From assembly GCA_913052575.1 (NCBI GenBank), contig CAJXFK010000007.1, positions 1 through 60,207 of the forward strand: a stretch of DNA of 60,207 nucleotides, given 5' to 3'. The notes beneath the pieces were generated by a model. That model saw only the letters and a list, made by a program, of their open reading frames with translations. It was not told where the DNA came from and made no database searches. The position numbers and the translations under genes are program-made. Numbering within the stretch: the first letter of the stretch is position 1; every line of letters begins with the position of its first letter. Shown piece after piece: positions 28,363 to 39,046 of the stretch. The DNA comes from an uncultured Planctomycetaceae bacterium. Its GTDB lineage: Bacteria > Planctomycetota > Planctomycetia > Pirellulales > UBA1268.

Positions 28363-29817
28363 ATGATGTCTGAAGATTCAAAACATGAGCAAGCTGACGA
28401 AGTTGAACGCTGGAGTAATCCACTTGCCGATCGTTACGCCTCAAAAGAAATGGCCTATATATGGAGTGATAGGCATCGATACGGCCTCTGGCGCAGAATG
28501 TGGCTAGCACTCGCTGAGGCTGAAGCTGAGATGGGGCTACCAATAACACCATCGCAGCTTCATGAGATGAGAGCGCATCTCGACACTATTGATTTTGTAA
28601 AAGCAGCCGCCTATGAAAAGCAGACCCGTCACGATGTCTTTGCGCACCTTCATACTTTCGGAGACGATTGCCCTGAAGCCAAGCCGATCATGCACTTGGG
28701 AGCAACGAGTGCTTACGTGACAGACAATACAGACCTCTGTTTAATTCGTGAATCACTCGATCTTACAGCGGGCCGGTTAGCCGGTGTTATTGAAAAATTA
28801 GCGAGTAAAGCTCGGGAAACAAAGGCGGTGATTTGTCTTGGTCGTACGCACTTACAACCAGCCCAGCCAACTACCATAGGAAAGAGAATCTGCCTCTGGA
28901 TTCTCGACCTCCTACTCGATCTTGAGGAAATTAACCATCGACGTTTACTTCTCAGTGCACGCGGTGTGAAAGGAACAACTGGCACTCAAGCCAGTTTTCT
29001 CGAATTATTCAATGGCGATCATGCAAAAGTAAGACAACTTGATGAACTTGTTTCAAAAAAAATAGGTTTTGACAAATCATTTCCTGTGACTGGGCAAACA
29101 TATCCCAGAAAAATTGATTCCCAGGTTCTAACAACTCTTGGTGGAATTTCAGAATCATCTCATAAAGCTGGAAATGACCTGAGGATTGCAGCAGCTTGGG
29201 GTGAACTTGAAGAACCCTTTGAAACTGATCAAGTTGGATCATCCGCAATGCCCTACAAGAGAAACCCAATGAGAGCTGAACGAATGTGCGGCTTGAGTCG
29301 TTTCGTCATGGGTCTTCAACAGACGGCAAGCCAGACTGCCGCGGTGCAATGGTACGAGAGAACGCTCGATGACTCAGCCCCTCGTAGGCTCGTACTCCCA
29401 CAGGCTTTCCTGGCCACAGACGCAGTGCTCTTAATATATTCAAACATTGCCGGTGGACTTGTTGTCCTCCCTGGAGCCATTCGTCGCAATCTTGAACAGC
29501 ACGTTCCCTTCCTAGCAAGCGAACGGCTCTTAATGGCTGCTACAACAGCAGGAGGTGATCGGCAAGAATTACACGAAGCCATTCGCCGCCATAGTCATGC
29601 AGCAACCGCAGGTATTCGTGATGGCCGCGACAATGATCTCGTTGAGCGACTTGCTGCAGACCCACTTTTCAAAGACGTTGACTTGCACGCTGCGCTCACA
29701 ATCGAGGGCCTTGAAGGACGTGCTCGTGTGCAAGTTGAAGAGTTTCTTGACGGCCCAGTCGAAGAAGCACTGAAGAATTGCCCCGAGCGAACTGGCGATA
29801 GTGAATTGCGAGTTTAA
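28363..29817 (+). CDS. purB: adenylosuccinate lyase
   Basis: MHLGATSAYVTDNTDL, GRTHLQPAQPTTIGKR, KGTTGTQASFLELFNGD, GSSAMPYKRNPMRAERMCGL signature. Confidence 0.95.
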   Translation: MMSEDSKHEQADEVERWSNPLADRYASKEMAYIWSDRHRYGLWRRMWLALAEAEAEMGLPITPSQLHEMRAHLDTIDFVKAAAYEKQTRHDVFAHLHTFGDDCPEAKPIMHLGATSAYVTDNTDLCLIRESLDLTAGRLAGVIEKLASKARETKAVICLGRTHLQPAQPTTIGKRICLWILDLLLDLEEINHRRLLLSARGVKGTTGTQASFLELFNGDHAKVRQLDELVSKKIGFDKSFPVTGQTYPRKIDSQVLTTLGGISESSHKAGNDLRIAAAWGELEEPFETDQVGSSAMPYKRNPMRAERMCGLSRFVMGLQQTASQTAAVQWYERTLDDSAPRRLVLPQAFLATDAVLLIYSNIAGGLVVLPGAIRRNLEQHVPFLASERLLMAATTAGGDRQELHEAIRRHSHAATAGIRDGRDNDLVERLAADPLFKDVDLHAALTIEGLEGRARVQVEEFLDGPVEEALKNCPERTGDSELRV

Positions 29818-29820
29818 TAC

Positions 29821-30534
29821 TCACCTTCCATTACGCTGCCACCGAACTTTGGGATCAGAACGCAAACCCCGCAACTCCTCCCGCAACTCACTTGGGGTCA
29901 TTCGAATTTTTCTTTCGAAACGGAATCGTTGAAGCCACCAATCTGCGGCAGCAACAATACCTGCAACCATCAGCATACCCCACAGGTAATTTACTGCTGT
30001 AAATAAGAGCCCACTACCCTGCCCTTCATCAGCACCAGGCTGCACTACAAAATCACCCAGAACAACAACGACCGAGCCTGATAATAACCAAGCAGCCGAT
30101 GCGAGAATTGCTAAACCAGCAAAAGATGTCACGGCCCGAACAACAGTCCCTTTGGATACAATACGTTGCAAACCGACCTTCGGATCAATCCGTTCGAACC
30201 GGAATGCCAAACGGTCGAGCCGCCATGCAGCTCCATCAAAAAACGTGCGAACCATGATCAAAACTCCGAGAGCAAGCATGACCACGACAACCGTGGGAAA
30301 AATGATCGGCAACAACTCATACGAACTTCCTCCCTTCCCTGTCATTTGAATATTTTCAATTGCAGAAACAGTAGCTGAAGCAGTCGTGCGATACCAAACT
30401 GGCATCACTGCCAAGACCACTACTGCCATCGCAGGCCAACCCAATGCAGTAGCGTTTGGAGCAAGCCCCTTATTACGAGCACTTTCTCTTCGTCGTGGCG
30501 TAGCTGGCAGGGTTCGATCTTGGCTTTCACTCAT
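29821..30534 (-). CDS. flhB: FlhB/SctU-like export protein lacking the C-terminal autocleavage domain
   Basis: PATPRRRESARNKGLAPNATAL (FlhB N-terminus), four TM helices, RFRFERKIRMTPSELREELRGLRSDPKVRWQRNGR*; stops before any NPTH motif. Alternative start at 30546. Confidence 0.82.
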   Translation of the reverse strand: MSESQDRTLPATPRRRESARNKGLAPNATALGWPAMAVVVLAVMPVWYRTTASATVSAIENIQMTGKGGSSYELLPIIFPTVVVVMLALGVLIMVRTFFDGAAWRLDRLAFRFERIDPKVGLQRIVSKGTVVRAVTSFAGLAILASAAWLLSGSVVVVLGDFVVQPGADEGQGSGLLFTAVNYLWGMLMVAGIVAAADWWLQRFRFERKIRMTPSELREELRGLRSDPKVRWQRNGR

Positions 30535-31429
30535 CGATCTGCCCATCTTCCTTCAGATCAAATAGTGTGCCACGAAGGACTACAGGATTTGATAATTTAA
30601 AGGCAGCCTCAAACGGTGTACGCAGGTACTCCCCTGAATTGCCTGCCCACTGCTGACTTCCAACGATTAGTCCACCGAGCATTACAGCAGCAGCAATACC
30701 TTGAAGAACTCCAGGTCCGGGCGAGGTATCAACTGAACGCATACAGATTGTTGCAGTGAGGTGCGCTGTCATTACGGCAACAAGAAGTGGAGCAGCGATC
30801 ATGAGCACCATGTGCAAACAAAGCGATGGCAACTCAATCAACCTCAACACAACTGGTAGTCCTAACAAGTCACTTGATTGAGCAAGTGCTCCTACTGGAA
30901 GTTGGAGGAAGCTATCAACAAGTCCAGCAACTACCAACTGCTGACCACCGGCAACAACAAATGAAGCAAGGCCCATCCATCCGCAAAGACGCGCGACACC
31001 AGGACCACCACTGCCACCTGGGGTAAAAGCATCTGCCCAGTTAAGCCCTGCAACGCTCGCAAGCACACTTCCGGAAGCCTCGAAAACGCCCACGAAAAAA
31101 CTGACCGTGATACCAAGGCAACAACCAACGAGCAACTCTGAAAATACCATTGGTACAAACGATTGCTCAACGACACCATGAATTTGTGACACTGAAATTG
31201 CTACTGGTGCAGCAGCAAAACCGAGAACAAAAAGTAGTGCAAGCCTGAGATGGACCGTTCCACCCGGAAACATCCGTAAACCACCACTCAGCAGAACACC
31301 TGCTATGCGGGCCAGCACACCAATAGAAACAAATATCGATGATTCTGTAAACAAGGCAAGGAGCCCAACAGTGCTTGGAGTTTCAGCAACGAGCAAAACA
31401 CACTCCGAGAATACAGGGAACAGGAACAC
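30527..31429 (-). CDS. fliR: FliR/SctT-like export apparatus membrane protein
   Basis: FVSIGVLARIAGVLLSGGLRMFPGGTVHLRLALLFVLGFAAAP...FSELLVGCCLGITVSFFVGVFEASGSVLASVAGLNWADAFTPG...VARLCGWMGLASFVVAGGQQLVV. Confidence 0.85.
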   Translation of the reverse strand: MFLFPVFSECVLLVAETPSTVGLLALFTESSIFVSIGVLARIAGVLLSGGLRMFPGGTVHLRLALLFVLGFAAAPVAISVSQIHGVVEQSFVPMVFSELLVGCCLGITVSFFVGVFEASGSVLASVAGLNWADAFTPGGSGGPGVARLCGWMGLASFVVAGGQQLVVAGLVDSFLQLPVGALAQSSDLLGLPVVLRLIELPSLCLHMVLMIAAPLLVAVMTAHLTATICMRSVDTSPGPGVLQGIAAAVMLGGLIVGSQQWAGNSGEYLRTPFEAAFKLSNPVVLRGTLFDLKEDGQIDE

Positions 31430-31431
31430 TG

Positions 31432-31686
31432 TTAGGGCGAAAGAACACTGACCTGAAACAGGCTGACAAACCTGTCAATCATCCACCCTCCAGTCAAGAA
31501 CATGACGGCCACCATGACAACAAGCCGAGGAACCATACCAATAAGCGGTTCATGAATTCCTGTAGCCGACTGCAAAACCCCAACAACCAAGGCTACTAGC
31601 AAGCCGGCCAAGAGAGCTGGAGCTAGCAGCAACCCACCTTCAAGAAGTGAAGATCGAACGAGTGGAACAAGATCAAAGTCTGCCAT
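31432..31686 (-). CDS. fliQ: FliQ/SctS-like export apparatus protein
   Basis: 84-aa two-TM protein LVRSSLLEGGLLLAPALLAGLLVALVVGVLQSATGIHEPLIGMVPRLVVMVAVMFLTGGWMIDRFVSLF; between fliP and fliR. Confidence 0.85.
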   Translation of the reverse strand: MADFDLVPLVRSSLLEGGLLLAPALLAGLLVALVVGVLQSATGIHEPLIGMVPRLVVMVAVMFLTGGWMIDRFVSLFQVSVLSP

Positions 31687-31743
31687 GCAAAATATTTCCT
31701 CAAACCTCTGGCTCACAAAGAGAACATAAAAACCAAACTTGAA

Positions 31744-32622
31744 CTATGACGTGTTGAGGCACACCCCGTCTAGCAAACCACGAACAACCAGAGACCAGCC
31801 ATCCGCCATTACAAACACCAGCAACTTCAACGGCAAGGACACAATAGTAGGAGGCAACATGACAAGGCCCGTTGAAACCACAAGAGTCGCAACAACACAG
31901 TCCAACACGAGAAAAGGAAGCAGGATTCGAAAGCCGATCATAAACGCGACCTCCAGTTCACTCACAAGAAAAGCAGGCAAAAGCACTTCTGTAGGAATTT
32001 GGTCGTAACTATCGACTTGATTTATACCGTCTGGATGTCGGCGGAGAAATAATGCAACGGTATCACGGTTACCCGCCTCCTCTATCTGATGAGACATCCA
32101 GCGACGGATAGGTAGACTCCCACGATCGAAAGCCTCCTGCAAAGAAACCTCTCCAGCCTGGTAAGGCTCAACCCCTGCTTGATAGGCCGTAGTCCAAACT
32201 GGCCACATCACAAGCGCAGACAAAAAAAGTGCCAGTGATGTAATAATTTGAGTGGATGGCAAATTTGCAGTACCAATGGCTTGCCGCGTAAGTGACAAAA
32301 CAACCGACATTCGTACAAAGCATGTTGTCATGAGCAGCAAAGCTGGCGCAAGACTCATCACGCCAAAAGTTATTGCTGCCGGCAACAGACGATCAGCCCA
32401 CCGCCGATCCAAAATATCAGAAATACTATCTGGCAACTCAACTGCCTTTGGGGTCAAAACACGTGCGTCAGTGTCTTCTTCAAGGACTGAACGACCGTCT
32501 TCGGCACCTGGAGCAACCTTCCCTCCTTCAAGCTGAACGTCCTGAGCATGGATCGCTGAAGCACTCATAGCCAGCCCTATGACCAATACCAGTCTTTTCA
32601 ACGCGGAGGTCGAGGTAGTCAT
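31744..32622 (-). CDS. fliP: FliP/SctR-like export apparatus protein
   Basis: LAPALLLMTTCFVRMSVVLSLTRQAIGTANLPSTQIITSLALFLSALVMWPV...LLPAFLVSELEVAFMIGFRILLPFLVLDCVVATLVVSTGLVMLPPTIVSLPLKLLVFVMADGWSLVV. Confidence 0.95.
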   Translation of the reverse strand: MTTSTSALKRLVLVIGLAMSASAIHAQDVQLEGGKVAPGAEDGRSVLEEDTDARVLTPKAVELPDSISDILDRRWADRLLPAAITFGVMSLAPALLLMTTCFVRMSVVLSLTRQAIGTANLPSTQIITSLALFLSALVMWPVWTTAYQAGVEPYQAGEVSLQEAFDRGSLPIRRWMSHQIEEAGNRDTVALFLRRHPDGINQVDSYDQIPTEVLLPAFLVSELEVAFMIGFRILLPFLVLDCVVATLVVSTGLVMLPPTIVSLPLKLLVFVMADGWSLVVRGLLDGVCLNTS

Positions 32623-33254
32623 TACGCCACCTCTGAATGAGTCGTACTGGCAGAGTTTGTCATATCTTGCTTTCTGCCCGACTCAACAACTTGGGAGCCA
32701 CTTGGATCTTTGGAATTATTGTCAACTGACAGGCGATTGGCCGAAGACCGCAAAGTCTGCTCTCCACGACAGGCAGCAGCAATCCACTCTGTGGCCAAAG
32801 GATCGTCTAGTTCTGAAAGTGTCTTTGGCCCACCACTTCCCACACTCACCAAGAGGGTCTTAGGGCCGAAACGAACAATTCGCACAGCTTGGCCATTGCC
32901 TAACGTTGATTCTCCAAGCAACTCAAACACATCACTCGGTATTTTAAATTCAGTTCGTCGATTAAACAGCCGGACGCCAACCAATATCACTCCCGCAATA
33001 CCCACAATGGCCCATGCCTTCCAATCAAAAGCTATGTCGTTGCCAAACGACAATGCATTCGATTCGCCAGAAGGCTGAGTTCCTGAAGTCTCTTCCAAAG
33101 ACAGGGCAACGCTAGGAAAATTGCTATGAAAAGGAGTTTCGGCATCTTGCTCATCTGCAAGGAGCAAAGCATGCGAAGAGATACACAATGCCAGTGAAAA
33201 AATGACTTTGCACAACAGCATATTGTAGGATAGAAAATTTCTCATAGAGCTCAC
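32622..33254 (-). CDS. fliO: FliO-like bitopic protein
   Basis: Signal/TM, AIVGIAGVILVGVRLFNRR, VFELLGESTLGNGQAVRIVRFGPKTLLVSVGSGGPKTLSEL; position between fliF and fliP; GTG start overlapping FliF stop (TAGTG). Confidence 0.75.
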   Translation of the reverse strand: MSSMRNFLSYNMLLCKVIFSLALCISSHALLLADEQDAETPFHSNFPSVALSLEETSGTQPSGESNALSFGNDIAFDWKAWAIVGIAGVILVGVRLFNRRTEFKIPSDVFELLGESTLGNGQAVRIVRFGPKTLLVSVGSGGPKTLSELDDPLATEWIAAACRGEQTLRSSANRLSVDNNSKDPSGSQVVESGRKQDMTNSASTTHSEVA

Positions 33255-34693
33255 TACGCCTTCGCTTGCTCTTCATGCTGATGCGGACGTCGAATCGCTG
33301 CCCAATTAATCAACTTGCGACCAGCATCAGACATATCCGACTGCTGTTCCGGCATTCGCCACCTCGGCCACCACATAAACACCACAGACAAACCAAGCGC
33401 CAAGCAGCCATACAGCGCGATCAGCTTCCCTTTCATCAGGGATCGAATCACCAACTCCGAACCAATTGGCAAAAACATTGATAATGAATATGTTGGTGCA
33501 GGAGAGGCTTCTTCTTCACCAGCACTCGATTGATTCGACGCACCTTGCACACCTTGAGCACTAGCAGCGCTAAGTCCGGGATATCGAGTTATTGTGACCA
33601 CAGCACGACCCCAAGGTTCCGTTGCAGGAACAAGCCCAACAACGAGCGCCCGGAGTCTTTCAATTTCAGCACTCGCGGCGTCTTCCACGTTTGCGTAAAT
33701 CTCTTCACGCAAACGGTCAATGTACGTTTCCGGAATTGCCACAGAAACGTAGACGACTTGTCCAACATCGGTGGCACCCTGATCACTACCTAATCCAACA
33801 CCCACAATTGCAGGCACGTTAGCAGCCGCTCGTACATCACGAACTATCGTTTCTTTTTTACCGTCAGCTACTTGCTCAATAGCGGAGGCATTCACCTCAA
33901 CAACAACTCCAGCAATAAAAGCCAACGCCTGACGTATTTTTAAAGTTACATGCTGCTCGTACGCAACAGCTCGTGCTCGATTTGGATCGGTAGTAATGAA
34001 CTCAGCATCGGATAACAACGGACCATCGAACACTTTTCCACTTCGAAGATCAGTCAGAGCCACCTGCTCTACGCGAAGACCTGCAATCGAAGCCGCGACA
34101 AGGACCCGAATTGCCTCGACACGATGCCGATCAAGCTCTAACTCAGGTTGTGTACGAATACTCACACTTGCCGTTTGCGCACGGGCATTACCCTCACGAA
34201 ATAAACTACCCGCATTACTCCCCGAATAAAGTACTGCAGCCTGTTCGATACCTGGCATGGTCCGAATCACCAGTGACAATTCCTCCTGGGTCGCAACTCG
34301 CACCAACTCAGCCTGAGTCTCCTTACTCCGCCAAGGGCTGTCGCTCTCAACGGCTCGCCGCAGGCTGCCTCCAAATTCTGGAGGCAGAGCACCCGCATCA
34401 ACAACCGCCCTTAAATAACTGCTCTGCTGGCCCCGATCTACATAGAGCCGACCATCATCCACACGATATGAATTAAGGCCGGAGCGATCAAAAACAGCCT
34501 CGATAACGGCAAGGTCTGCCGGACCAAGAACCGCTCCAACCAACAACTCAACCTCACCGCCTGCTTTTTTTTCCGGAAACTCAATAAGCAGGCCACCTGC
34601 TACCGCAGCGAGCAACAAAAGACAGAATCCAACAACCTGAATCGGCCGGACTCCAGAATGAATTTTTGACACATTTTCGATTGCTGCATCCAT
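33254..34693 (-). CDS. fliF: FliF/SctJ-like MS-ring protein
   Basis: N-terminal TM; RBM1-like GAVLGPADLAVIEAVFDRSGLNSYRVDDGRLYVDRGQQSSYLRAVVDAGALP; RBM2-like QAELVRVATQEELSLVIRTMPGIEQAAVLYS...ASVSIRTQPELELDRHRVEAIRVLVAASIAGLRVEQVALTDLRSGKV; C-terminal TM. Confidence 0.82.
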   Translation of the reverse strand: MDAAIENVSKIHSGVRPIQVVGFCLLLLAAVAGGLLIEFPEKKAGGEVELLVGAVLGPADLAVIEAVFDRSGLNSYRVDDGRLYVDRGQQSSYLRAVVDAGALPPEFGGSLRRAVESDSPWRSKETQAELVRVATQEELSLVIRTMPGIEQAAVLYSGSNAGSLFREGNARAQTASVSIRTQPELELDRHRVEAIRVLVAASIAGLRVEQVALTDLRSGKVFDGPLLSDAEFITTDPNRARAVAYEQHVTLKIRQALAFIAGVVVEVNASAIEQVADGKKETIVRDVRAAANVPAIVGVGLGSDQGATDVGQVVYVSVAIPETYIDRLREEIYANVEDAASAEIERLRALVVGLVPATEPWGRAVVTITRYPGLSAASAQGVQGASNQSSAGEEEASPAPTYSLSMFLPIGSELVIRSLMKGKLIALYGCLALGLSVVFMWWPRWRMPEQQSDMSDAGRKLINWAAIRRPHQHEEQAKA

Positions 34694-34720
34694 GCAGGAA
34701 TCTCCATTTCAAGCAAAAAA

Positions 34721-35224
34721 TTAAGCAACCATACGCTGTGAAATCACCTTTGGAAGCCGTAACGTCACCGCTACGCCACCCTCAGCACAATCATCAAGCC
34801 GTATGTCACCATGAACCTGATCAAGCAAATTCTGCTGGGCAACTGTATGCACACGACCAACAACACCCCCACTAAGCTTTTGGCGATCTACAAGAGAGGG
34901 ACCGCTGTCGGCAATTTCTATCTCAATGCAATCTGCATACTCAACACTCGTGATGAGAACTTCTGCGGTACGTGCCATTGCAGCACTCCCAGCGGCAGCA
35001 CGAACCGCATCGCAGAGCCACACGTTGAGCAACTGATCCAGAACAACAACATTTCCTTCAAACCTATGAGCATCAGGAACGTCAACTGACACATGAGGCA
35101 AAGGCACACCTGAATCGGCATGCTGACGCTGCAAGCCACTGACTACTTTTTCGACAATTCCTCGTAAGACTGGTGACTGACCACACTCGCCTGTGGATTG
35201 TTCTGCCGAGATGGATTTTTTCAT
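34721..35224 (-). CDS. degenerate histidine-kinase-type (GHKL) ATPase-like protein
   Basis: VVVLDQLLNVWLCDAVRAA (N-box-like), IEIEIADSGPSL (G1-like), GGVAVTLRLPKV; no HisKA or sensor region; start at MKKSISAEQ. Confidence 0.6.
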   Translation of the reverse strand: MKKSISAEQSTGECGQSPVLRGIVEKVVSGLQRQHADSGVPLPHVSVDVPDAHRFEGNVVVLDQLLNVWLCDAVRAAAGSAAMARTAEVLITSVEYADCIEIEIADSGPSLVDRQKLSGGVVGRVHTVAQQNLLDQVHGDIRLDDCAEGGVAVTLRLPKVISQRMVA

Positions 35225-35256
35225 CGTAAAGCCTTTATTCTTTGAGCCTATATTCA

Positions 35257-35973
35257 CTAGACGAGAGCAGTCATCTGACCCTCTGGAACGCGACAAACCT
35301 CGTCCATAATCCACCGATCAATATCACCAACCATATCTCCCAGGGACACCTGCTGAGTCCCATCAGTGCTTTTATTTCGATAGACACGCATCGAGAGCAG
35401 TCCACCGGCAGCATGAAATAGTCGCAGTGTCTGATTTACATCACGATCATTCAGCAACTCACCCGTTTTTGTTTTTTCATCACAACAAAGCATCATCGGG
35501 AGTGAACGAACACGATCAAACTGCCCGAGCAGTCCCTCGCGTAGAGGAAATTGTCCATTCACTGAGACGACCCCGGCAAAGGACTCTGGATTTTGGCAAG
35601 CGTAACGAAAGGCATTCCCTCCACCTTCCTCAACACCAATAAGATAAATTCTGCGAGAGTGAACGCTATACCGACTCATTGTTAGGTCAATAGCTTCAAA
35701 GCAACTCTCCAAATCAGATGGGTCAGCAGGTACTACTGCAATGTAATTTCTTAAACTCATTCGCATCATCGTGCGACCTAAGTCAAAGTGAGCATCGTCC
35801 GACTGTGGAAGCCACACGAGGAGTGGGTAATCGTATCCCGACTCATACCCTCTTGGTAAAAACAGTTGCTCTGGTTCACTTGAAGGGAGATTCACCTCGT
35901 TGCACAAAGAGCCTCTACTGCTTGGTGAACAATGATTGGATTCATAATGAAATACTGTCGACTGATGCACCAT
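35257..35973 (-). CDS. alpha/beta-hydrolase-like protein with altered nucleophile motif
   Basis: YDYPLLVWLPQSDD...SRRIYLIGVEEGGGNAFRYACQNPESFAGVVSVNGQFP: esterase nucleophile-elbow context with Glu where Ser is expected. Confidence 0.65.
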   Translation of the reverse strand: MVHQSTVFHYESNHCSPSSRGSLCNEVNLPSSEPEQLFLPRGYESGYDYPLLVWLPQSDDAHFDLGRTMMRMSLRNYIAVVPADPSDLESCFEAIDLTMSRYSVHSRRIYLIGVEEGGGNAFRYACQNPESFAGVVSVNGQFPLREGLLGQFDRVRSLPMMLCCDEKTKTGELLNDRDVNQTLRLFHAAGGLLSMRVYRNKSTDGTQQVSLGDMVGDIDRWIMDEVCRVPEGQMTALV

Positions 35974-36148
35974 TCCAGATCCTCCGCGTAACCTTTTGCA
36001 AAAATACACAGCGTGATTGCTAACGCATTGCCACAAGGTATTCGACTTATGGCAATACGTCGAAGGTTTCTAACGCAGTCACACACTCCGGGCAATGGCA
36101 GCATTTCCGTGTGAAAATGAAGAGTTTTCGCGAAGCTAGCCGGCAGAG

Positions 36149-36175: not shown

Positions 36176-37141
<966 letters not shown>

Positions 37142-37362: not shown

Positions 37363-38697
37363 CTACGGGAGTTCGATCTGATCAGGAAGACTCTCTCTTA
37401 ATGGAGAACGATGCCTACTTTGACAAAACCCTTTCACGATCCAGCCAACAAGAGCGACTGCAGTGAGCACCGGCAACCAGGTCATTCCACGAGGAAGTTT
37501 GGGGGACTCCTTTGCTACCACCCAAAATGGATTTTTACCGACAAGCAGCGGAGACTCCTGAGGCCTTCCCTCCTTTGTCGCCTTTCCAGAATAATTTAAA
37601 CGACGCGTGATATATCGGTATCTCTTAAAAAGAAAACCTGCAACCTTCAATCTTTCGTTCACCTCTTCACCGACAGGCATTCCTTCAGGTAATTTTGTGC
37701 AACAGAAAACAACTGGGTAGGTTTCCTGAAACTCGTTATGAATCTGCAAAAGAGGTGTCGACACAAATAAGAAAATTTCCCAGTAGTGATCGCTACCAAG
37801 TATTTCCCGATCACGCTTTGAATCCACAGTAACTTTCACAATACGGCGAGCTGTGCCATCCAAGACTATCTGATGCCCCCGGTGCAGCCGTAGCCAATCA
37901 CTAGCAGGATCGAGTAATGCAACAAGCGACTTGTCGTCTATAGGCGGACCATTAGGAATTTCCTTTTGTCTTGCACTTACAAAAAGACTGGAATAAAAAG
38001 CCTCGGATTCCAATGCTCTTAAGGAATCACCATCAACAACTGATGGGAACAAGCCATAATCCATACCTAACTTCCCAAACAGTGTCTGCGGCCACCACTG
38101 AAGCCTCGCTGCCACTGCAAGAATTGACCCCTTACGCCTTTCCATCGACTCGTTACTTGGAGCATGAAGCAGTATTGCTGTTGCCCCGCCAGACTGGTTA
38201 AGAGCCTGCCCAACGGGTAGACCGACCGGAACCTTAGGCACGACTACCCATACCTTCTGGGAATCTTCCAAAAGTAATTGTACTACGTAGATATCCTGCG
38301 CGTTCGTTATCGCTGCCACATTTCTTGGCGCTTTTATACGATCGACTCTCAAGATTTTCCCACTGAACTCAATCGAGCGGCACTCTTGCTGATATGTCCT
38401 CGCCAGACTGCTGTCAAATTCAGCTGAATCGTCGGCCCACTTCTGAAGCCATTGACTCGGAGCACCTTGTAAACGATTGAAGATTCGTGCCATTAATTGG
38501 AATTCGTCATTCGACAGTATGACCTTGTCACCCTCTACCACCGCCCCGAATTGTTTCTGCAGGTACGATGGAGCGAGGTCCCACGTCCTAAAATATTCCT
38601 CGGGCGACTGGATTGCAGATGATGCATTTGCCGCTGTAAAAAAAAAGGCAACTAATAGTGCCTTTCCGACATGTGCAAAAGCATGACGTAATTTCAC
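37363..38697 (-). CDS. hypothetical exported/membrane protein
   Basis: Likely GTG start VKLRHAFAHVGKALLVAFFFTAANASSA (signal peptide) 4 nt after the upstream stop; C-terminal TM LPVLTAVALVGWIV. Confidence 0.68.
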   Translation of the reverse strand: MKLRHAFAHVGKALLVAFFFTAANASSAIQSPEEYFRTWDLAPSYLQKQFGAVVEGDKVILSNDEFQLMARIFNRLQGAPSQWLQKWADDSAEFDSSLARTYQQECRSIEFSGKILRVDRIKAPRNVAAITNAQDIYVVQLLLEDSQKVWVVVPKVPVGLPVGQALNQSGGATAILLHAPSNESMERRKGSILAVAARLQWWPQTLFGKLGMDYGLFPSVVDGDSLRALESEAFYSSLFVSARQKEIPNGPPIDDKSLVALLDPASDWLRLHRGHQIVLDGTARRIVKVTVDSKRDREILGSDHYWEIFLFVSTPLLQIHNEFQETYPVVFCCTKLPEGMPVGEEVNERLKVAGFLFKRYRYITRRLNYSGKATKEGRPQESPLLVGKNPFWVVAKESPKLPRGMTWLPVLTAVALVGWIVKGFCQSRHRSPLRESLPDQIELP

Positions 38698-38701
38698 GTA
38701 C

Positions 38702-39046
38702 TCAGGTCGCTGCTGTTGGCATAGGCGTTTCATGCGACCGTTCCGAAGACTCATCTCTTGCATTTGACTTACTAGGTGCAGAACTTCCTGCTCCCCTGCC
38801 ATCACCATCATTGGCTTGCTGTTGTCGTCGTGTTTCTCGCCAGACATAAAGACCAAATGATCCTGCAAGCGTAAACGGCATGGCCATCATCAAAAGGATA
38901 CTATAAAAATATCCACGGGCTATGTTTGCGCCCTCACTGTCAGCTGCCGCCAGCCCATCTTTACAGGTTGGACAAGCCAATACGTCACTACTTATTACAA
39001 GGCATGCAACAAGTAGGATTGAACAAAGTATGACACGTCTTTTCAT
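38702..39046 (-). CDS. small membrane protein of the oxidase cluster (unknown function)
   Basis: MKRRVILCSILLVACLVISSDVLACPTCKDGLAAADSEGANIARGYFYSILLMMAMPFTLAGSFGLYVW. Confidence 0.72.
   Translation of the reverse strand: MKRRVILCSILLVACLVISSDVLACPTCKDGLAAADSEGANIARGYFYSILLMMAMPFTLAGSFGLYVWRETRRQQQANDGDGRGAGSSAPSKSNARDESSERSHETPMPTAAT

Follow-up and report, generated by a model that had tools for sequence, protein, structure and literature searches.

What is the use of a flagellar export gate in a bacterium without a flagellum? The question is raised by an uncultured planctomycete of the order Pirellulales (family UBA1268), whose genome is available as a 2.9 Mb draft (G000; 85% complete, 172 contigs). 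The window analysed here, the whole stretch of 60,207 nucleotides from one of its contigs, carries an operon of export genes that an earlier sequence-only reading had described as a stand-alone core with no ATPase, FlhA, rotor or filament genes, and as either a relict or a repurposed channel or ring. The operon was compared with its counterparts in related genomes, and its missing partners were sought outside the window.

An export operon between purB and mdh

Eight same-strand genes had been proposed, and all of them lie on the minus strand at 29821–35973, from an esterase-fold protein to a short FlhB, flanked by purB (28363–29817, plus strand) and mdh (36176–37120, minus strand). Their packing is as tight as had been reported, with overlaps or gaps of about 1–57 nt depending on the start codons chosen. 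The first gene, HYD (35257–35973; alternative upstream ORF start at 36036), encodes an alpha/beta-hydrolase (esterase) fold, and is followed by a GHKL-like gene (34721–35224; alternative upstream start at 35314; HATPase_c E 0.01), a putative remnant of a histidine kinase; the Pfam matches of both are weak. Next come fliF (33254–34693; PF01514, 56 bits), whose product, the MS-ring protein, has its ring domains as well as the two membrane helices, and fliO (32622–33254), encoding the export-gate assembly factor, which at 20.5 bits falls slightly under the PF04347 cut-off of 22 and is assigned by position and by conservation in relatives. The three genes of the export channel are all present with Pfam scores above cut-off, namely fliP (31744–32622; PF00813, 215 bits, supported by alignment and by matches to FliP structures in the PDB), fliQ (31432–31716; PF01313, 62 bits) and fliR (30527–31429; PF01311, 64 bits). 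The last gene, flhB (29821–30546; PF01312, 94 bits, above cut-off as is fliF), encodes the membrane half of FlhB, 241 amino acids that match profile positions 1–232 of 335 and stop before the NPT(H) autocleavage site.

The order of the eight genes is kept in those family genomes whose contigs span the operon, which rules out a chance arrangement. Models of defence systems gave no match. A 501-amino-acid protein without a Pfam family (37363–38868, minus strand) adjoins mdh in most family loci. Judged by its sequence, the FliF-FliOPQR-FlhB core is a variant of the flagellar export apparatus and not a flagellum, and we found no earlier description of such a core in the openly licensed literature.

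Conserved FliP motifs had been taken to speak against random decay, and comparison bears this out, as FliP is strongly conserved in the alignment and the dN/dS values are far below 1. In the nearest pair of genomes (G000 and G002), the eight operon genes have dN/dS of 0.12–0.32 at dS of 0.4–0.8, and the flanking mdh and purB have 0.03–0.06 (YN00 estimates, with NG86 for some pairs); none of the operon genes comes near 1, the value that decay would leave. The same operon with intact frames is found across 12 genera. Low dN/dS and conserved operon order together argue against decay. The gasket loop of FliP reads GLVMLPP in the family, replacing the Met-rich form.

Flagellar genes in the family and the order

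Gene content was searched with curated profile cut-offs in 36 genomes of the window's family, representing 12 genera, including the window's own genome and mostly at least 90% complete. None of the 36 has a match for rod and hook proteins (Flg_bbr_C), for the flagellin filament (Flagellin_N) or for FliM and FliN (FliMN_C), and none exceeds the cut-off for FliE (one sub-threshold match) or for the export ATPase FliI (TIGR01026). The best FliI-profile scores in the family, about 209–219 bits, are like those of the second, F-ATPase-like matches of flagellated genomes. FliG_C has no match anywhere in the window's genome, and reading the operons of other family members reveals no fliG between fliF and fliO. 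Neither a secretin nor a needle subunit was seen in the fliF–flhB and flhA loci. The same searches detected rod/hook proteins, FliE and flagellin in 16–17 genomes of other families, so the profiles do work in the order. The lack of ATPase, rotor and filament genes first noticed in the window thus holds for the entire genome. A complete flagellum elsewhere in the genome was considered and rejected, because the rod/hook, flagellin, FliMN_C, FliI and FliE profiles are all negative, which agrees with the proposal of a repurposed locus rather than one that serves a flagellum. As regards freshwater planctomycetes, Andrei et al. 2019 (PMC6461901) assign a flagellar apparatus only to Nemodlikiaceae and three other MAGs, in passages that do not mention a retained export core.

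Across the order, the operons form a graded series from G052 and G053 through to the family state (INTERMEDIATES). In G052 and G053 the arrangement is mdh-HYD-GHKL-fliFGHIJN-OPQR with a full-length FlhB. The operons of G069 and G082 have the same arrangement with a truncated FlhB, and G082 is without a GHKL match. G243 has HYD-GHKL-fliF-fliG-fliN-OPQR-flhB and no fliHIJ, and G037 and G078 have HYD-GHKL together with a fliF-fliG fusion (FliG_M 48.7 bits in G037). In these two non-flagellar operons, FliF and FliG lie in one open frame, at L144:7365–9260 in G037 and from position 2840 of L389 in G078. Read as gene orders, the series fits stepwise gene loss. In a free FlhA tree, G052 is nested within flagellates (100/96), and a single clade of non-flagellar loci was not rejected (p-AU 0.06), with long branches present in the tree. 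The FlhA tree is compatible with a single origin of all non-flagellar loci and also with loss on several occasions.

The gate proteins and their accessories

The short FlhB had already been noticed and its truncation is real, but the earlier reading did not say that the autocleaving switch domain is gone in its entirety. FlhB was found in 32 of the 36 family genomes, and the family's own FlhB is always without about the last third of the profile, with matches ending at positions 223–244 of 335. Extrapolated from the alignment, the window's FlhB reaches to about residue 247 of a reference FlhB of 383 residues, some 20 residues short of the cleavage site. Family FlhB tails contain no NPT and stop 25–60 residues past a conserved MTPxE motif, except in G015, where the frame continues into another protein; the FlhB of flagellated G036 reads ITNPTE at the cleavage site. 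The rod-less G052 and G053 keep the C-terminal domain but have lost the cleavage dipeptide, the site reading TNQAE and TDAEG. A frameshift or assembly error was rejected as the source of the short FlhB, since the truncation recurs throughout the family and the flhB stop lies right against purB; a separately encoded FlhB C-terminal protein was also rejected, as no PF01312 match for it was found. G001 (73% complete, 5% contamination) carries an extra full-length FlhB and an FlhA on one contig (C272); this FlhA sits on a very long branch of the tree, and the contig is probably foreign contamination.

A wider survey of 248 genomes of the order found FlhB in 42 of 46 family genomes, all low-scoring. 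Outside the family, 42 genomes have low FlhB scores and the match ends at profile position 221–248 in 37 of these. With G037, G040, G047 and G055 added, about 41 non-family genomes, in families f2, f3, f6, f13, f15 and f17, have an FlhB without the C-terminal domain, a count in which the 37 are judged on the FlhB match alone and include some matches that extend past a stop codon. Two FlhB-family matches each, possibly reflecting a second export system, are present in G130, G144, G153, G164, G166, G171, G202, G208, G220 and G257.

FlhA had been thought absent, but this part of the description was wrong: one complete FlhA is encoded elsewhere in the same genome (G000:C9:28100–30049, 557 bits). 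It covers positions 2–653 of 657 in the FHIPEP profile, so that membrane and cytoplasmic domains are both present, and with it the genome encodes the full membrane gate of FlhA, the N-terminal part of FlhB and FliPQR. FlhA was found in 34 of the 36 family genomes. The protein scores 536 bits with the flagellar model vs 409 bits with that of injectisome SctV, yet lies below the NCBIfam FlhA equivalog cut-off; for FliP and FlhB, too, flagellar models outscore Sct models. Downstream of flhA are genes for a sigma factor of the FliA/WhiG subfamily (sigma-28, FliA; above the TIGR02479 cut-off) and then for a FlgM homologue (above the curated PF04316 cut-off), and the FlhA-FliA-FlgM-Fur block is kept in those family loci that extend far enough. 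The Fur-like regulator (G000:C9:31911–32417) lies downstream of flgM, as it does in the family loci reaching that far and in G037. Second matches that stand by themselves and cover only the C-terminal half of FlhA occur at G049:C10:357603–358631 and G040:C1:2744771–2745808, and each of these genomes has a full FlhA elsewhere.

Conservation of the FlhA membrane part is 81% in the family vs 83% in flagellates, and that of the cytoplasmic part is 61% vs 78%; the cytoplasmic docking domain is much diverged, with 24% identity to flagellates. Among 14 aligned family FlhAs, residues R94, D249, D45, R85 and R270 are retained, D208 is replaced by Glu and K203 by Arg in all 14, and R206 is altered in two. 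In Salmonella FlhA, D208E was the sole functional replacement among the D208 changes tested, with slower export (PMC3139655).

The hydrolase-like and GHKL-like proteins had been proposed as accessories, and both are indeed conserved in place, but they look like degenerate enzymes. The core of the HYD model has pLDDT above 90 and its Foldseek matches are esterases; of 17 family members, 13 have another residue in place of the nucleophile Ser and none has a residue aligned with the His of G053, and HYD is probably catalytically dead. GHKL aligns with an intact kinase encoded next to fliF in flagellated G036, and its key motifs are degenerate in the family. FliF keeps its ring domains, with Foldseek matches to MS-ring structures from a model of low overall pLDDT (64), and among the 17 family FliFs of sufficient length, a simple pattern search found 11 with a tail motif that reads (I/L)(D/N)W or resembles it. 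A further protein, with TPR-like repeats and a lipobox-like GCRL at its N-terminus, has its gene 1–3 kb from flhB in most of the family loci that belong to other genera than the window's, and near flhA in G009 and in the window's genome (G000:C9:34727–35527). In G015 it shares one open frame with FlhB (L133:11909–13729), a fusion read in that genome only; the FlhB frames of G024 and G032 are similarly long. Its location near flhB or flhA and the G015 fusion link this lipoprotein to the export system, of which it is a candidate extra part, perhaps a periplasmic partner.

Possible functions and known systems

Of the two fates first suggested, repurposing is favoured by the family-wide conservation, the purifying selection and the lack of a flagellum elsewhere, and a relict does not agree with dN/dS so far below 1. 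Our preferred reading, tentative and with a probability of roughly 0.4, is a flagellum-derived export core that operates without a flagellum, in late mode and on proton force, with FlgM export as its likeliest role. The FliF ring in the inner membrane would enclose the FliP-FliQ-FliR channel, with FliO aiding assembly, and the membrane half of FlhB and the FlhA ring would serve as gate and proton coupler. Because rod, hook, filament, C-ring and export ATPase are gone, export would be powered by protons and end in the periplasm. Since the FlhB domain at which early substrates dock and by which the early mode is maintained is missing, the gate should be fixed permanently in late mode, and no recognisable early substrate remains in the family, FliE, rod and hook being absent. 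FlgM is the sole recognisable late cargo and is encoded with FliA beside flhA, so its export, which would set sigma-28 activity, is the likeliest role; lineage-specific cargo may perhaps also be carried.

A parallel is offered by Chevance et al. 2026, who studied Salmonella without rod/hook genes and Fluke: with an flhB stop at codon 258 or loss of residues 270–383, FlgM-Bla reached the periplasm and FlgE was not passed, and export there is locked in late mode once FlhB loses its C-terminal domain (PMC13344023). That strain retained FliE and needed overexpressed basal bodies (PMC13344023), and it may have kept FliHIJ. From the same combination in the family, of FlhB truncation, absent rod and hook, and FlgM-FliA beside flhA, we infer a late-locked FlgM gate. 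A sigma-28 promoter pattern derived from the relatives' flagellin promoters showed no excess over control, and the specificity may have changed. No sigma-28 regulon was found with this pattern, and the sites common to G000 and G002 fall within a coding sequence. FlgM and FliA could also work without export. That gate and ring, devoid of ATPase, C-ring and FlhB switch domain, are a proton-driven anti-sigma pump only, with nothing built, is doubtful.

Could the cargo be something else? The core may export lineage-specific late-type proteins, whether periplasmic, envelope or secreted, that are unrecognisable by sequence, with FlgM and FliA only regulating their genes. The complete membrane gate is consistent with such clients, as are the FlhA cytoplasmic domain, present but diverged as if clients had changed, and the linked TPR lipoprotein gene; however, neither a substrate nor a chaperone candidate gene was identified at the two loci, and we consider this explanation somewhat unlikely. 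A further step away, the FliF ring and gate might no longer export and might instead act as an envelope scaffold, landmark or ion conduit, binding HYD, GHKL and the FliF tail. This would suit the loss of ATPase, C-ring, FliE and FlhB switch domain, the seemingly dead enzymes conserved in place, the FliF tail motif in most members checked, the altered gasket loop of FliP and the influence of flagellar export proteins on twitching in non-flagellated Lysobacter (PMC7277350). Yet conserved proton-coupling residues in FlhA and a conserved FliP core are unexpected for a passive scaffold, FlgM is kept with FliA beside flhA, and we regard a non-exporting ring as clearly improbable. A decaying relic of a flagellum would explain the many missing genes and the lost catalytic motifs of GHKL and HYD, but is very improbable for an operon whose frames stay intact across 12 genera at such low dN/dS. 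That a complete flagellum has fallen into the assembly gaps of a fragmented draft is barely conceivable, given identical absences in 36 genomes and profiles that find the parts in other families.

If the core does work only as such an anti-sigma pump, the family would possess a secretion-based gene switch in which no structure gets built. These uncultured planktonic bacteria offer a natural test of a type III gate acting alone, retained although ATPase and rotor are lost, and with them the part of FlhB to which control of substrate order is ascribed; other families of the order have lost this FlhB domain too. Two ideas thereby become testable. One is that in nature the gate can export with proton force as its only drive. 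The other is that evolution has fixed a step which work on Salmonella mutants proposed in 2026 to be the specificity switch itself, namely the removal of the C-terminal domain from FlhB (PMC13344023).

Among known systems, the flagellar type III export apparatus (FlhA, FlhB and FliOPQR in the FliF ring) shares all membrane components with the family core, and FliA and FlgM are kept, whereas the family is without FliHIJ, C-ring, FliE, rod, hook, filament and the autocleaving C-terminal domain of FlhB, and its FlhA carries D208E and K203R. The non-flagellar T3SS of Myxococcales (Abby and Rocha 2012, PMC3459982), whose function was argued from conservation, likewise has a conserved core without rod, hook, secretin and needle genes; those systems keep the ATPase, whereas the family core is flagellar-type with FliA and FlgM and without ATPase and FlhB switch domain. 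The FT3SS of Lysobacter enzymogenes (PMC7277350) and the basal bodies of Buchnera (PMC8109811) resemble the family in that export genes are kept without flagellar motility; unlike the family, L. enzymogenes keeps FliI and can export flagellin, and Buchnera keeps basal-body structural genes. The Salmonella flhB-deltaCCD, flk, rod-hook-minus mutant (PMC13344023) is like the family in its FlhB state, in its lack of rod and hook and in having FlgM as the late cargo left. It is, however, a laboratory strain with FliE and overexpression, whereas the family state is natural and fixed and extends to the loss of FliI, FliE and C-ring genes.
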